A DNA stretch of 64,000 bases. Origin: Planococcus sp. SK3692 (lineage in GTDB: Bacteria; Bacillota; Bacilli; Bacillales_A; Planococcaceae). Numbering within the stretch: position 1 is the stretch's first letter; every line of letters starts with the position of its first letter. The position numbers and the translations under genes are program-made. Under the pieces are notes generated by a model. The model had not been told where the DNA came from, ran no database searches, and saw only the letters and a program-made list of their open reading frames with translations. Shown here one piece after another: positions 20,951-49,298 of the stretch. The stretch lies in contig NZ_JARCHV010000001.1 in assembly GCF_028890485.2 (NCBI RefSeq), forward strand, positions 372,001-436,000. Reading direction: 5' to 3'.

Positions 20951-21187
20951 TAAAAAAGAGGCAACTCGCCGATTGCCCGGCAAGCTACCTCTCTTCTCAT
21001 GTACGATTTCAAACGTCCATGTGAGATAGCCCTCCAGAGTCAAACTCTGACAGCCCTGCATCTCTTAAATGCAGGACCAGCATACACGCAAGCAGTGCGC
21101 GTAAACTTCGGCGGGCGTCCCTTTCGGCATCCTTCACAGATTCTGCAAATCTCGGAATGCTTACTTTTGACGTCCGCTCCTCTATCA
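20951..21187 (-). promoter_or_regulatory. Lysine riboswitch (L-box) with regulatory terminator
   Basis: Aptamer 21025-21187, closed by P1 GATAG (5' side, about 21182-21186) with CTATC (21025-21029). Conserved L-box pieces GAGGAGCGGACG, AAGGATGCCGAAAGGG, GGTCCTGCA..TGCAGGGCTGTC and GGAGGGCTATCTC are present. The expression platform is a 15-bp stem (20957-20971 with 20978-20992) followed by TTTTTT. High lysine should cause early termination before lysC. Confidence 0.93.
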
Positions 21188-21219
21188 TCACTTTTTACAA
21201 GTGATTCAATTGTGTTCTT

Positions 21220-38732: not shown

Positions 38733-38984
38733 TAAAAAAGCCCCGCCCCCAAAAAGGGACGAGGCATTGATTCGCGGTACCACCCTAGTTATCGCACGCA
38801 TGCGATCACTTCATTGAATAACGGCTCATCACCGGCCAGACTTTACGGCACTCGGCCGGTCCCCGTCTAGCAGCTCGCGGGGTGAACTTCCGGAGTTCCT
38901 GCATATCCGCGCTTTCAGTCGAGGGCGGACTTCCTTGGATGCAGGGGAACTACGTACTTTTCCCGGTCAACGCTTGTTTATTTC
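38733..38984 (-). promoter_or_regulatory. T-box leader of pheST
   Basis: The canonical T-box AGGGTGGTACCGCG lies at 38773-38786, followed by the terminator stem GCCTCGTCCC/GGGGGCGGGGC (38740-38765) and TTTTTT. Stem I upstream has GTAC/AG-bulge-like segments; a UUC codon with a following A at 38884-38886 is a good candidate Phe specifier. Uncharged tRNA-Phe should favour the antiterminator. Confidence 0.93.
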
Positions 38985-41059: not shown

Positions 41060-41405
41060 CTAATTTTATTAATGTGTAGTGTGAAAATGAATCTAGTTTT
41101 CATCGAGCGTCAAATTTCAAATCGCCGCCCGGCTTTGGGTTGGCCTCATGCAGCAAGCCAGGAAGAACGCCCGTCTTACTGCGTCGGCTCACCCTTGGCG
41201 CTGGGCGGCTGAAAACGCGACGTCCTGTCGCATCAGCTGCATGACTCGCTTCCTGCGAGCCTCAAGCAGCATCTTCCCTGCAGTCGAATAGTGTTAGCTA
41301 ATCCTATCTATTCACCTAAGATTCGCAAGTCATTTTCGCAGTAATTCCACAACCAATTTACTGCAGCCACAATAAGGAGCTACTCTCCTAAAATCTGCTG
41401 GAGTC
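41060..41405. other. Gene-free region with a third copy of repeat family A
   Basis: No reading frame with a ribosome site. It holds the inverted family A core (41124-41209), then TGCGACAGGACGTCG on the minus strand (41218-41232), shared with a hairpin in the thrS leader. The remainder (41233-41405) shows nothing recognisable. Confidence 0.7.
41124..41209 (-). repeat. Repeat family A core, third copy (86 bp, inverted)
   Basis: Read on minus it starts GCCGCCC and ends GGGCGGC, a perfect 7-bp closing stem where the copies near hemA have a different, partly interrupted one. It keeps GAGCCGA, GCAGTAAGAC, CTGGCTTGCTGC and GAGGCCAACCCAAAGC. The inner stem GCAGTAAG/CTTGCTGC remains paired through G-C and G-U replacements. 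Confidence 0.8.
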
Positions 41406-44299: not shown

Positions 44300-44352
44300 A
44301 TTGAATTACCTCCTGCTTGAATATGAAAAATTCGATTTTTGTAGTTGTGGGT

Positions 44353-44472
44353 GTTGTCTAGACTTCAACGGCCAACTCCTCGGCCTTAAGCTGCCCTTCC
44401 TGTTCGACATAAAGCGCCGCTTCGGAAGTACATCTTAAGTCGGCCGGAGCTGAGCGGCCGTTTCCGCTTTTC
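44353..44472 (-). repeat. Repeat family B, copy 5, inside the infC-rpmI-rplT operon
   Basis: 120 bp between rpmI and rplT. Outer arms AACGGCC/GGCCGTT, middle stem CTTCC/GGAAG, CTTAAG on both sides, and the shared ATAAAGCGCCGC and CGCTTTTC segments. The arm sequences differ from the thrS-leader copies but remain complementary. Confidence 0.85.
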
Positions 44473-44476
44473 GTTC

Positions 44477-44677
44477 TTACTTCATGTTGTAGATCAATGA
44501 TTTGATGCGTTTCAAGTCGCCTGCAGAAACCAATGAGCCCTTACGGAGCTTACGTTTTTGCTTAGTTGACTTGTTTGCGAACAAGTGGCTTGTGTGGGAA
44601 CGGTTGCGTTTTACTTTACCAGTTCCAGTTTTCTTGAAGCGTTTAGACGCTCCACTGTGGCTTTTCATTTTCGGCAT
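44477..44677 (-). CDS. rpmI: 50S ribosomal protein L35
   Basis: 66 residues, strongly basic: [20 protein letters not shown] and the typical C-terminal [12 protein letters not shown]. 28 bases after infC; GGAGG precedes the start. A family B repeat begins 4 bases after its stop and lies between it and rplT. Confidence 0.97.
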
Positions 44678-44705
44678 TTCGGGTTCCTCCTAAACAATTA
44701 TGCTA

Positions 44706-45227
44706 TTATTCCTTCTCGTTGACCGGGTTCAGCATCAAGAACATACTGCGGCCTTCCATTTTCGGGCGCTGTTCAACCGTCGCGACTTCCTTGCACTCTT
44801 CTGCGAAGCGCTCAAGGACGCGTTGTCCGATTTCTTTGTGCGTGATCGCACGGCCTTTGAAACGGATTGAAGCTTTCACTTTGTCGCCTTTTTCAAGGAA
44901 CTTGATGGCATTGCGGAGCTTCGTGTTAAAATCGTGGTCATCGATGCCAGGGCTCAAACGAACCTCTTTGACGTTGATGATCTTTTGGTTTTTACGAATT
45001 TCGCGCTCTTTCTTTTGCTGTTCAAATTTGAACTTGCCGTGGTCCATGATCCGTGCGACCGGCGGCTTAGCTTGAGGAGCCACTAGTACTAGATCCAAGT
45101 TGACACGAGCTGCAATCTCGAGCGCCTCGTTGCGTGATTTGATTCCGAGCTGTTCACCATTTTGGTCAATAACCCGTAATTCACGTGCACGAATGCCTTC
45201 GTTTACATTGTTGTCTCTGCTAATAAT
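44706..45227 (-). CDS. infC: Translation initiation factor IF-3, AUU start
   Basis: 173 residues. Binds the 30S subunit and checks start-codon pairing. N-domain [22 protein letters not shown], linker and C-domain with [14 protein letters not shown] and [11 protein letters not shown]. No ATG, GTG or TTG fits; the frame opens with ATT ATT AGC six bases after GGAGG, so the start is AUU at 45227, the autoregulated start known for infC. First gene of infC-rpmI-rplT. Confidence 0.95.
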
Positions 45228-45291
45228 GATCCACCTCCGGGTAGTGTCGCGAATAGCTTAAATGTGTAAACCGGACGATCCGGTTCACAGG

Positions 45292-45446
45292 CGCAAACAA
45301 AAAGCGGGCGAACCCCGAGGAGTTCGCCCGCCATAATATGACACATGCTAGATGCATGTAAAAGTCAATCGTGTCTACCTGCCAACAATCGGTCGATCAG
45401 GTGAGAAGCGGGCGCTCCTGCTTGCACATATAAGTATTCAATAACC
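45292..45446 (-). promoter_or_regulatory. L20-type leader of infC-rpmI-rplT with attenuator
   Basis: Terminator stem GCGGGCGAAC / GTTCGCCCGC (45304-45331) followed by TTTTTG. An upstream GCGCCCGC can pair with its 5' arm as an antiterminator. Location and layout match the L20 leader of B. subtilis, where L20 binding promotes termination. Confidence 0.8.
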
Positions 45447-45452
45447 TAAATA

Positions 45453-45481
45453 AGAATATCACGCAGTACTTTTACTGTCAA
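45453..45481 (-). promoter_or_regulatory. Sigma-A promoter of infC-rpmI-rplT
   Basis: -35 TTGACA (45476-45481, consensus), 17-base spacer, -10 TATTCT (45453-45458), starting five bases after the thrS stop. Confidence 0.85.
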
Positions 45482-45486
45482 GCACT

Positions 45487-47415
45487 TTAGCGAAGTTCGG
45501 ATTGAACGAGTTTAAGGAAGTCTTCGAACGGCATGCTCTCCGAGTTCTGCTCGCCGTATTTGCGGACATTGACCGAGCCGCTTTCAAGTTCCTTATCGCC
45601 GATAACGAGCATATAAGGAACTTTCTGCATTTGTGCTTCGCGGATTTTATACCCCAGTTTTTCATCGCGCTCATCGATGTCGACGCGCAATTTATGCTGC
45701 TGCATTTTTTCCTGAAGCTCTTTTGCGTATTCGCTGTGCACATCGAGCGATACCGGGATGATTTCCACTTGTACCGGCGCGAGCCATGTCGGGAATGCGC
45801 CTTTGTATTCTTCGATCAAGAATGCGACGAAACGCTCCATAGTCGAGACGACCCCACGGTGGATAACAACCGGACGGTGCTGTTTGCCATCTTCCCCGAT
45901 ATACGTTAAATCGAATTTCTCAGGCAATAGGAAGTCGAGCTGGACAGTCGATAAAGTCTCTTCTTTGCCAAGCGCTGTTTTCACTTGAACGTCGAGTTTC
46001 GGCCCGTAGAACGCCGCTTCGCCTTCTGCTTCAAAATAATCGAGGCCAAGTTCATCCATCGCTTCTTTCAGCATCGATTGTGCACGGTCCCACATGGCGT
46101 CATCGTCGTAGTACTTTTCTTTATCAGCTGGGTCGCGGTAGGAAACGCGGAACGAATAATCTTTCAAATCGAAGTCTTTGTATACTTCAATGACGAGATT
46201 AACGACGCGCTTGAATTCTTCTTTGATTTGATCCGGACGCACGAACAAGTGAGCATCGTTCAATGTCATGCCGCGTACACGTTGCAAGCCGGACAAGGCA
46301 CCTGACATCTCATAGCGATGCATCAAGCCAAGTTCTGCGATGCGGATCGGCAATTGGCGGTAGGAGTGAATGCCTTGCTTGTAGATCATCATATGATGCG
46401 GGCAGTTCATTGGGCGCAGAACGAGATCCTCATTGTCCATTTGCATGACCGGGAACATGTTCTCTTGGTAATGATCCCAGTGTCCGCTTGTTTTATACAA
46501 TTCGACACTGCCCATAACCGGTGTGTAGACATGGTCATAGCCCATACGCTCTTCTTTGTCGACGATATAGCGTTCGATGATGCGGCGGATTGTTGCACCC
46601 TTCGGCAGCCACATCGGCAGACCTTGGCCGACTTTTTGGGAGTTCATGAACAAATTGAGCTCTTTGCCGATTTTTCGGTGGTCGCGTTCTTTCGCTTCTT
46701 CCAGCATTTCAAGATGGGCTTTCAGTTCTTCTTTTTTGAAGAAAGCCGTGCCGTAAATGCGCTGTAGCATTTTATTGTCACTATCGCCGCGCCAGTAAGC
46801 ACCAGCAACACTCAGTAATTTGAATTCCTTCAATTTTCCAGTCGATGGCACGTGAATGCCGCGGCATAGGTCAAAAAATTCACCTTGTTCGTAGATCGAT
46901 ACTTGCTCATCTTCTGGAATCGCTTCAAGCAATTCTAATTTATAAGGATCGCTGATTGCCTCGAAACGTTGTTGTGCTTCGTTTCTTGATACTTCCACAC
47001 GGACGATGTCCAAGTTTTCATTGATGATTTTCTTCATTTCTTTTTCAATGACCGGTAGATCTTCAGCTGTAATCGCCGATTCTGTATCAATATCGTAATA
47101 GAAGCCGTTTTCGATGACCGGCCCAACACCCAGCTTGGCATCCGGGTATAGGCGTTTGACTGCTTGAGCCATCAAATGCGCTGAGCTGTGGCGAAGTACT
47201 TCCAATGCTTCTTCAGACTCCGGTGTGATGATCGCGATCTCGCCGTTTTCTTCAAGCGGCGCTTTCAAGTCAACTAGGTTGCCGGAAAGTTTTCCCGCTA
47301 CTGCTTTTTTACGAAGACCTGGGCTGATCGATTGTGCGATTTCTTCAGTGGATGTTCCTTTAGCGAACTCTTTTACTGCGCCATCTGGGAATGTTAGTTG
47401 AATCATGTCTGCCAT
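45487..47415 (-). CDS. thrS: Threonyl-tRNA synthetase
   Basis: 642 residues. TGS domain (1-65), N2 editing domain with [18 protein letters not shown] and the His/Cys site (about 70-220), class II catalytic core with motif 2 [17 protein letters not shown] and zinc ligands including the Cys in [12 protein letters not shown], and a C-terminal anticodon-binding domain (about 535-642). Start [12 protein letters not shown] follows GGAGAG. The leader is about 900 bases: a T-box, then a 560-bp array of family B repeats. Confidence 0.97.
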
Positions 47416-47490
47416 ATGAATCTCTCCTTTAAATGATATTGGGGGTGAGTCGCGAACCACAGGGTCTGGTTCAGCTCTTCGGCTTTTGCT

Positions 47491-47610
47491 GGTGCTAACT
47501 TCGGCTGCCTGCTCCTCGGGGTCTTAAGTCCCCCTGGCTGTGCGGCATAAAGCGCCGCTTCGCCAGGGCGCCTTATGCCTGTCAGAGCTGAACAGGCGCT
47601 TCCGCTTTTC
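47491..47610 (-). repeat. Repeat family B, copy 1 of the thrS-leader array
   Basis: Nearest the thrS start. Middle stem CTGGC/GCCAG and apical stem GCGGC/GCCGC. Its left outer arm resembles other copies but the right arm (AGGCGCTT) matches copy 4, so this copy looks like a recombinant of two units. Confidence 0.8.
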
Positions 47611-47796
47611 TTGGTGTCTAGCTTCGGCAGCCAGACCCTCGAGGTCACAAGCCAATTTGCTATTGCGGCAAAGAGCGCCGCTTCAGCAAACAGTCTTGTG
47701 CTTGTCGGAGGGCCACAGGATGTGGGTCAGCTAACCGTTGCGACAGGACGTCGAGCTTTTAGGTTAGCTTCCTCTTTCAGGCTGCCTTCGCTTTTC
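47611..47796 (-). repeat. Repeat family B, copy 2, with a nested 41-bp hairpin insertion
   Basis: Outer arms GGCAGCC/GGCTGCC, middle stem TTTGCT/AGCAAA, apical GCGGC/GCCGC. An extra hairpin AGCTAACC/GGTTAGCT (47729-47769) interrupts the right half and contains TGCGACAGGACGTCG, also found at 41218-41232. Confidence 0.8.
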
Positions 47797-47920
47797 TCGG
47801 TGTCTAGCTCCAGCTGCCTGCTCCTCGGGTCATAAGCCACTCCGGCTGTGCGGTTGAAAATACACCGCTTCGCCGAATCGTCTTATGCCTGTCGGAGCAT
47901 AACGGCAGCTTTCGCTTTTC
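47797..47920 (-). repeat. Repeat family B, copy 3
   Basis: Outer arms AGCTGCC/GGCAGCT, inner TGCTCC/GGAGCA, apical stem GCGGT/ACCGC where other copies have GCGGC/GCCGC: a compensatory change. Confidence 0.85.
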
Positions 47921-48043
47921 TCGGTGTCTAGCTTCAGCGCCTAGCTCCTCGGGGACTTAAGTCACCCTGGCTGTGCGGCATAAAGCGCCGCTTCGCCAGT
48001 GCGCCTTAAGCCTGTCAGAGCTGAACAGGCGCTTCAGCTTTTC
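47921..48043 (-). repeat. Repeat family B, copy 4
   Basis: Outer arms AGCGCCT/AGGCGCT, inner AGCTC/GAGCT, CTTAAG on both sides, middle CTGGC/GCCAG, apical GCGGC/GCCGC. It begins 12 bases after the T-box terminator in transcript order. Confidence 0.85.
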
Positions 48044-48055
48044 TTTTTTCCCACA

Positions 48056-48315
48056 CAAAAAGCCCCATCCCAAAAGGGACGAAGCTCTGTTCGTGGTTCC
48101 ACCCTTCTTCTCTTCCGCACAATTTTTGCGCGCGGAATGAAGCTCTGCATCGGCTAACGGGCCGGTACCGTCGCCTGCTACTAAAGTTCGCAGGCGCTGC
48201 TCGAAGGGGGTAAACAAAAACGCTGTGCCGGGAAGCTTTCAGCCGAGTCTTCCCTCTCTGTATGCCATGCGTGATCGCTCATGTCCTTGTCGTTGCATGT
48301 AAATCATTAATGATG
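48056..48315 (-). promoter_or_regulatory. T-box leader of thrS
   Basis: T-box AGGGTGGAACCACG on minus near 48092-48105, followed by the terminator stem CGTCCC/GGGATG with GGGGCTTTTT (48056-48086). Stem I has AGAGAGGGAAGACTCGG. An ACC in UUUACCCCC near 48210 may be the Thr specifier, but I could not fix it with confidence. Confidence 0.88.
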
Positions 48316-48321
48316 ATTCTT

Positions 48322-48350
48322 ACTATACGATGAAAAAAATCAAAAGGCAA
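48322..48350 (-). promoter_or_regulatory. Promoter of the thrS leader
   Basis: -35 TTGCCT (48345-48350), 17-base spacer, -10 TATAGT (48322-48327), just after the dnaI stop. Confidence 0.7.
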
Positions 48351-48359
48351 TAGTTTCTC

Positions 48360-49298
48360 CTACTTGTTGCGGCGGTTTTCGCCTTCAAGTTTGACTGGGA
48401 CGGTCAATGCCTGGATCCGCTCCATAATGCGAGCTGCTTTCAAATCTTCTTTTTCGCCACGTTGTGAATAAGTTAAATGGTGTGCGAGTTCAGAATAGCT
48501 GAAGTTCGAGCTCATGAAAGTCGGCAATTTCTCCGCCATCCGGTAATGAAGGATCGTTCCAAGCACTTCGTCCCGCGTCCAACTAGACATTGCTTCAGCT
48601 CCGATATCATCGAGCATGAGCACATCGGCCCGTTTGACGTATTCGATTTTCTCCTGAAGTGTATGGTCGCCGATCGCTTGCTTCATTTCACGCATGAATT
48701 CCGGCACGAATACAAGAACCGTTTTCACATTGATTTCCGCAAGTTCATTTGCAACTGCGCTTAGCAAATAAGATTTGCCGGTGCCGAATTTGCCATATAA
48801 GTACAAGCCTTTTTCCGGAAGCGAATCCGGTCCTGTCGCTTTCTCGAGAAATTCGTCGACTGCACGAAAAGCAGGGAGCCTGCGGTCGTCCAGCTCGAAG
48901 TTTTCGATTCGCGCAGCCATCACTTCTTTTGGCATATACATGCTGTGGATCAAAGAGGAAGCATGCCGCTTATTGTCTTCGGCGGTCTTCAACCGGCATT
49001 TGGTGTATGAGATGCCAATATTGCCGCGCTCCAAGACAAGATTCGGCTCAAACCCTTTGAGGTGATTGATGCAGCCGCCGAGATTCGGGCATTTATTGCA
49101 GTCATGCGATTGGTCGATATATTCGTATAGCTTGCCCATGCCTTTTTCCACTGTCGGTCCGTCAATATCCTGTTCGTGTTCTTTCAGGAACTTGAGGACG
49201 CCGGGATGTTCCAGTACTTCTTTCTTCATCGCGTCGTAGCGCTCGGAAAATGAGGGCGCATTGACCACTCGCTTCATCGTTTCACGAATCGGTTCCAT
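48360..49298 (-). CDS. dnaI: DnaI, helicase loader
   Basis: 312 residues. AAA+ protein that loads the replicative helicase DnaC at oriC and at restart sites. N-terminal helicase-binding region with a Cys-rich CNKCPNLGGC zinc site (about residues 67-76), then AAA+ with Walker A GKFGTGKSYL (about 169-178) and Walker B VLMLDDIGAE. It begins directly after the dnaB stop codon, indicating tight coupling. In B. subtilis ytxC and ytxB lie between thrS and dnaI; neither is here. Confidence 0.95.
   Translation of the reverse strand: MEPIRETMKRVVNAPSFSERYDAMKKEVLEHPGVLKFLKEHEQDIDGPTVEKGMGKLYEYIDQSHDCNKCPNLGGCINHLKGFEPNLVLERGNIGISYTKCRLKTAEDNKRHASSLIHSMYMPKEVMAARIENFELDDRRLPAFRAVDEFLEKATGPDSLPEKGLYLYGKFGTGKSYLLSAVANELAEINVKTVLVFVPEFMREMKQAIGDHTLQEKIEYVKRADVLMLDDIGAEAMSSWTRDEVLGTILHYRMAEKLPTFMSSNFSYSELAHHLTYSQRGEKEDLKAARIMERIQALTVPVKLEGENRRNK

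Follow-up and report, generated by a model that had tools for sequence, protein, structure and literature searches.

The repeat described here appears to have its nearest kin in kind, as judged by descriptions and not by sequence comparison, in the BOX, YPAL and bcr elements. In the accounts available to us, BOX elements of Streptococcus pneumoniae are modular dispersed repeats with a variable number of inner modules and predicted RNA hairpins; they are judged parasitic, and one copy forms a composite RNA with two T-boxes (PMC3049150). YPAL, or RU-2, of Yersinia is described as ~168 bp long, with internal inverted repeats and no terminal TA, expressed with upstream genes and represented by filled and empty sites (PMC2229807). 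The bcr1–bcr18 repeats of the Bacillus cereus group are, by their summaries, small and intergenic, often within untranslated regions and some with conserved structures, bcr1 reaching up to 130 copies (PMC3446304, PMC6542083). REP elements are dispersed palindromes of 20–40 bp that flank a rayt gene, and in GTAG REPs the TAG often serves as the stop codon of a flanking gene (PMC2817692, PMC3733652). In Bacillus halodurans, the 74-bp Bhal-1 repeat occurs in 36 copies with a conserved stem-loop (PMC2267715).

Set against these accounts, our repeat is like BOX in being modular and dispersed, with variable copy number and RNA hairpins, but differs in that BOX is streptococcal and built as boxA–boxBn–boxC, whereas here whole hairpin units stand head to tail in many families; the part of the BOX description available to us does not mention stop-codon placement (PMC3049150). 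With YPAL it shares size class, internal inverted repeats and filled and empty sites, whereas YPAL occurs in other bacteria, makes target duplications of 3–26 bp at or next to dyad symmetry and, in the description at hand, forms no tandem arrays (PMC2229807). Like bcr elements it is small, intergenic, structured and often in untranslated regions, but bcr mobility is linked to a TTTAT motif, which lay within 25 bases of 3 of 88 5′ and 0 of 88 3′ array ends here, against a background of 4% over 526 windows (PMC3446304, PMC6542083). REP elements, as far as described, are alike in being dispersed palindromes associated with stop codons; unlike them, our element has a 120-base fold and a sense orientation, and no link to rayt was found at the one locus inspected (PMC2817692, PMC3733652). 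Bhal-1, likened by its description and not by sequence, could be an inner part of this hairpin (PMC2267715), and Bacillaceae-1 RNA (RF01690), a repeat-like RNA of the same bacteria (PMC2864571), is nested in one of our units but is a separate family. A literature search outside subscription papers and supplements found no published description of this repeat family. EFAR repeats of Enterococcus faecalis, again compared by description and not by sequence, are alike in their variable assembly of modules, hairpins and empty and filled sites, but integrate into stem-loop targets.

The window, by which we mean the whole 64,000-nucleotide stretch of the Planococcus sp. SK3692 genome that was analysed, holds five units (Table 1), all in the same sense as thrS and the rpmI–rplT genes (the latter two identified by NCBIfam matches). 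Four run head to tail from the T-box terminator to the thrS ribosome-binding site. A preliminary description of this DNA had reported these four tandem hairpins and a fifth copy at 44353–44472; covariance model R1, built from 11 of the 14 copies that a DNA search had turned up (L009, L010 and L014 were omitted as short or partial), recovers all five there on the minus strand, and the sequence confirms the outer arms given for copies 2–4 as well as the middle and apical stems. The T-box placed before the array also matches its Rfam model, with a score below the gathering score. Unit 2 is 186 bases long because Bacillaceae-1 RNA is nested inside it. The claim of more than 550 bases of structure after the attenuator fits the predicted fold of the 621-base leader, at −262 kcal/mol (z = −8.8 against 20 shuffles).

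Table 1. Features of the thrS leader and the rpmI–rplT intergenic region (window coordinates).
Feature	Position	Strand	Evidence	Folding z
thrS coding sequence	45487..47415	−	NCBIfam TIGR00418, 806 bits; ATG at 47415, ribosome-binding site AAAGGAG upstream	
Unit 1, nearest thrS; type A hairpin, outer arms mismatched (no pairing with each other)	47491..47612	−	R1, 104.7 bits	−2.5
Unit 2; type A hairpin with Bacillaceae-1 RNA between 5′ outer arm and inner stem	47614..47798 (end approximate)	−	R1, 64.2 bits over 47614–47726; alignment	
Bacillaceae-1 RNA (RF01690) nested in unit 2	47712..47778	−	Rfam, 66.8 bits (gathering score 35)	
Unit 3; type A hairpin	47800..47922	−	R1, 129.3 bits	−6.1
Unit 4; type A hairpin, first after T-box terminator	47924..48045	−	R1, 133.5 bits	−5.4
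T-box leader of thrS	48072..48302	−	RF00230, 85.5 bits (below gathering score 93)	
Fifth unit, rpmI–rplT intergenic region, directly after rpmI stop codon (44477–44479)	44354..44474	−	R1, 109.0 bits	−2.6

Each unit of ~120 bases starts with a segment that we call X (consensus AGAAAAGCGGAAGCGCC), is predicted to fold as RNA into one long hairpin and ends in CTAGACA. The unit ends, GAAAAGCGG and CTAGACA, are largely kept, and the sequence of the inner stem is lineage-specific. The outer arms AGCGCC and GGCGCT pair 12 bases inside the ends, with only 2–3 predicted pairs further out, and conserved loop strands (CGACA against CCGAG, and GAA against ACA in Planococcus) face each other within the hairpin. 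Parsing by the end motifs yielded 157 stretches: 108 of type A, 4 of type A with Bacillaceae-1, 19 of type C, 1 mixed and 25 unclassified, some of these last being chance occurrences. Type C units (for example in arrays L105, L125, L145 and L164) have the same outer stem and ends with a different distal hairpin (GACAAGCGCTGGA...), which makes the element modular. Bacillaceae-1 RNA was ruled out as a fixed component: of its 17 matches in this genome, 2 fall within 100 bases of the start of an R1 match and 15 lie at least 3 kb from any. After the last unit, the start of X recurs (X′) in 72 of 101 arrays; the direct repeats flanking arrays, X and X′, contain element sequence. Over positions +8 to +18, the X and X′ of one array are identical at 68% of positions (68 arrays), compared with 55% when shuffled among arrays, and none of 2,000 shuffles reached the observed value.

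Conservation of the fold was strong. Across 149 distinct rows, 95.7% of cells were paired and 35 of 37 pairs showed two-sided changes, and 52 distinct rows from five genomes of other families gave 95.1% and again 35 of 37, with none of 500 shuffles reaching any measure in either set; both alignments were fitted to the covariance model and are thus biased towards its structure. When structures were slid along the alignment, paired cells dropped to 28–47% and only 11–18 pairs retained two-sided changes, while a MAFFT alignment of 12 copies showed such changes at 20 of 37 predicted pairs. The covariance model, genome search and covariation test proposed in the preliminary description thus came out in its favour against shuffles and slid structures alike, and with them its claim that the fold and not the sequence is kept. 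Mean identity at unpaired positions (0.78) was hardly above that at paired positions (0.75).

Strand was addressed through wobble pairs. Pairs taken from one strand's fold lean towards that strand (G–U against A–C cells, 173 versus 26 for sense-fold pairs and 50 versus 69 for antisense-fold pairs), so only shared pairs were used. At the 23 pairs with Watson–Crick consensus predicted on both strands, 41 G–U faced 15 A–C cells among 74 sequences less than 85% alike (two-sided binomial 0.0007 assuming independent cells, which these are not). The sense alignment also folded at −52.5 kcal/mol and the antisense alignment at −34.2. Under these predicted structures, the G–U counts favour a sense-strand RNA; the excess could partly reflect transcription-linked mutation, and copies that are related do not count as independent.

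The family is widespread. This genome has at least 19 R1 matches with an E value no higher than 0.1, including 16 with E < 1e-12 (150 of 1,519 candidates scored), and at least 44 genomes of the genus have matches, each from 5 to at least 18. In the window's order, matches were found for 147 of 200 genomes (13 of 17 genera), and in class Bacilli for 60 of 398 (33 of 145 genera). Of these 60, 31 belong to 15 families other than the window's, and in six other-family genomes we counted 12, 18, 42, 81, 99 and 113 matches (E up to 1e-6); the preliminary description had mentioned similar elements in other Bacillales, and the element does occur in other families of the class. R1 was also run on 80 of at least 114 named stretches, the 34 others being BLAST targets and comparison loci only. 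Planococcus, Planomicrobium or Sporosarcina accounted for 76 of the 80, and the four under other names (Agathobaculum, Rhodobacteraceae, Pseudomonas and Desulfobacterales) had no R1 match. From 170 matches in the named stretches 154 were kept, after removal of 15 opposite-strand shadows and a weak partial match at L136; the named and G-numbered genomes overlap. Phage or plasmid carriage was considered and set aside: the exact core pattern occurred in no viral contig and distant BLAST of one unit returned no plasmid or phage match, searches that diverged copies would escape.

The earlier remark that the element has no assigned function agrees with Rfam, in which no family covers the unit. Above gathering score nothing but the nested Bacillaceae-1 RNA falls over the window units, and at E up to 1 no further family does so in window positions 44300–48400; no family lies over units in 12 other-family loci, and in 14 loci only Bacillaceae-1 was found in or beside them. 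An abundant structured repeat of class Bacilli is absent from Rfam, with copies in untranslated regions of essential genes (thrS and the rpmI–rplT operon). We think it probable, with moderate confidence, that this is a mobile-like, RNA-structured, dispersed non-coding repeat of ~120 bases found across Bacilli families, the thrS array being one of its many sites.

Its position relative to genes is distinctive. In a non-redundant set of 85 sites, 52 have a sense frame, open for 60 codons or more, that ends −4 to +6 bases from the 5′ end of the element, with TAA (37), TAG (9) or TGA (6) as stop codon. The mirror control at the element's 3′ end gave 1 of 85, test windows shifted upstream by 20, 40, 60, 80 and 100 bases gave 3, 2, 2, 8 and 2 of 85, and 3.2% of random positions were stop-adjacent. 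By this test 33 of the 85 sites are not stop-adjacent. The sites are grouped by source and are not a random sample: 58 were named loci picked by core pattern in Planococcus, Planomicrobium and Sporosarcina (38 stop-adjacent), 18 were best-scoring loci of five other-family genomes (10 stop-adjacent) and 9 came from G000, G149 and G194 (4 stop-adjacent); 25 of the 30 other-family loci were used, the five of G279 being left out. A recount on 23 arrays, redundant ones included, placed 12 at −4 to +6 of a sense stop. With open reading frames of at least 80 codons and a set of 87 sites, 41 of 62 sites with a sense gene upstream lay at −4 to +5 and only 1 at 6 to 60. That set left out 15 of 136 arrays because they come after another unit and combined sites with similar upstream sequence, with an ORF caller that missed short genes; the 85-site set, which superseded it, applied a stricter locus-edge rule, and one array count took 83 of 91 arrays, omitting 8 at locus edges.

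In 43 of the 52 stop-adjacent cases the main stem (model position 13) begins 10–15 bases past the stop codon. This is about where the edge of a terminating ribosome would lie, which suggests that the element is tolerated there. Some sites that are not stop-adjacent lie right behind attenuators or other terminators (thrS, a cobalamin riboswitch and L237). As a general target, terminators were rejected: a T-tract resembling that of a terminator ends no more than 30 bases before the element at 4 of 18 far sense sites, 3 of 43 stop-adjacent sites and 0 of 24 antisense sites. The link to stop codons is shown as one of position, with three candidate causes: insertion targeted to such sites, selection for position, or a route through RNA; it offers a handle on how small non-autonomous repeats choose their sites and on whether RNA or translation is involved. 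As a separate observation, some frames, at L142, L172 and L249, run into the element and stop 11 or 24 bases inside it, so a few proteins end in element-coded residues.

Selection for position is the core of a possible, if rather unlikely, explanation in which the post-stop hairpin is a functional mRNA 3′ element that stabilises or processes the upstream message, its placement owing nothing to insertion targeting. Orientation and placement tied to the sense stop codon, a fold kept across families and the presence, in 22 of 30 genus loci, of an rpmI–rplT match scoring over 40 bits would all suit such an element. Against it, unit number and even presence differ at the same gene between relatives, and arrays also stand behind attenuator terminators and upstream of the starts of divergent genes (an antisense gene lies upstream at 24 of the 87 sites, its start 30–72 bases away in 15). 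Under the mobile-like reading that we prefer, an element behind a stop codon would be tolerated in the mRNA and may also protect the upstream message from 3′ exonucleases.

Variation among relatives points to gain and loss of units. At one gene end other than thrS, genus genomes 88–100% identical upstream carry no unit, a solo X, one unit or several, with fully empty sites only in genomes 79–82% identical. There, this genome has one unit (L293), relatives 88–97% identical upstream have a solo X (L297, L298 and L304) or further units, and the more distant L306, L307, L309 and L310 have no unit in 330 bases. Between upp and wecB (named by NCBIfam), L145 has two units and L103, L038, L174 and L132, 76–80% identical to it over 120 bases upstream, have none. 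In L090 a unit is split by another one, inserted between CACAGGA and AGGGCAG with no target duplication; a second nested case, in L234, lacks a clean junction, which leaves L090 as the single example of insertion without duplication. We suggest that single units spread by insertion, helped by a putative factor that would read the conserved ends and the fold in RNA or single-stranded DNA, and that slippage or recombination at the repeated X segments subsequently lengthens or shortens arrays. Separately, genomes almost identical on either side of the rpmI–rplT element (window 44354–44474; L063–L075) carry two clearly distinct sequence versions of it, as if one had been replaced by conversion.

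A conventional MITE, moved by a DNA transposase acting on terminal inverted repeats, making target duplications and having a hairpin that is merely its palindrome, would account for a small, dispersed element with no evident gene whose outer arms form inverted repeats. We consider it unlikely, given the one clean nested insertion without duplication, direct repeats at array ends that contain element sequence, two-sided changes and a G–U excess that point to RNA, and the one unit that had no BLAST match in plasmids or phages. The preliminary description had named as its own counter-case a transposon-derived MITE with target duplications and no RNA conservation; at most half of that picture holds, in that the repeat looks mobile, but the one clean insertion left no duplication and RNA conservation is strong. 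Equally doubtful in our view is a mobile element acting at the RNA level, its insertion coupled to translation termination or mRNA 3′ ends. By this route a folded RNA unit would be joined to an mRNA close to or at its stop codon, then copied back into DNA, from which sense orientation, stop-codon junctions, post-attenuator sites, selection on the fold and insertion without duplication would all follow.

Y1 transposases characteristically act on hairpin ends and insert without duplication, features that fit our repeat, and this one enzyme family was searched for as a candidate mover. Of 46 genus genomes, 28 encode a Y1 transposase. It is nonetheless very unlikely that our repeat is a REP-type element mobilised by such an enzyme (RAYT, IS200/IS605-like): the other 18 genomes have no Y1, 17 of them have 5 to at least 18 R1 matches (at least 18 each in G194, G109 and G155), no R1 match lies in the 4.5 kb around the single Y1 gene of this genome, and REPs measure 20–40 bp (PMC3733652) against our unit of ~120. 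That single RAYT-like gene (G000 C5:794464–794799; L207) may serve another repeat.

Compensatory changes might also arise with no selection on RNA, since long inverted repeats can be corrected by template switching on DNA, a route known in general for such palindromes. Correction of this kind should erase mismatched internal loops, yet the loop positions GAA, ACA, GACA and CGA stay 70–100% identical among the 74 sequences, and G–U exceeds A–C in the shared pairs; we regard it as very improbable here.

The thrS leaders themselves bear on the role in thrS control that the preliminary description implied. All 46 genus genomes have a thrS match, and in 30 the leader was compared (that of L067 is cut by a contig end): R1 scores above 40 bits in 21 of them, finds no more than weak remnants in 3 and nothing in 6, although ThrS identity across the 30 is 88–100%; even 13 loci with ThrS 97–100% identical have 1–4 matches per leader. 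A thrS-specific second control layer behind the T-box, for which the extent of leader structure and the similar array behind a cobalamin riboswitch might speak, is rejected as highly improbable because unit number varies and can be zero. The implied role was not supported, the leader being one site among 16 strong matches of a repeat that also stands behind a cobalamin riboswitch terminator and many stop codons, with four units to none before similar thrS genes. The array would be transcribed only on T-box read-through and is probably tolerated rather than regulatory, which counsels caution before a leader's hairpin array is assumed to regulate the gene that follows.

Several neighbouring RNA features were recorded as observations in their own right. 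The cobalamin riboswitch of this genome (L209 5794–6180) has the same hairpin array directly behind its terminator, and an array precedes the same cobalamin-riboswitch gene in most genus relatives examined (L312–L325), in the layout seen behind the thrS T-box. Besides the copy nested in unit 2, the window holds a Bacillaceae-1 RNA at 41194–41259 (+). On the opposite strand, the RUCCU loops of this family become hairpin loops with AGGAY, which we take to resemble CsrA sites, and the strand annotated for RF01690 may merit checking. The window also contains a ribosomal protein L20 leader at 45290–45429 (−; 54.6 bits, just below the gathering score of 58.7), a second T-box leader at 38752–38979 (−) and a lysine riboswitch at 21019–21192 (−).
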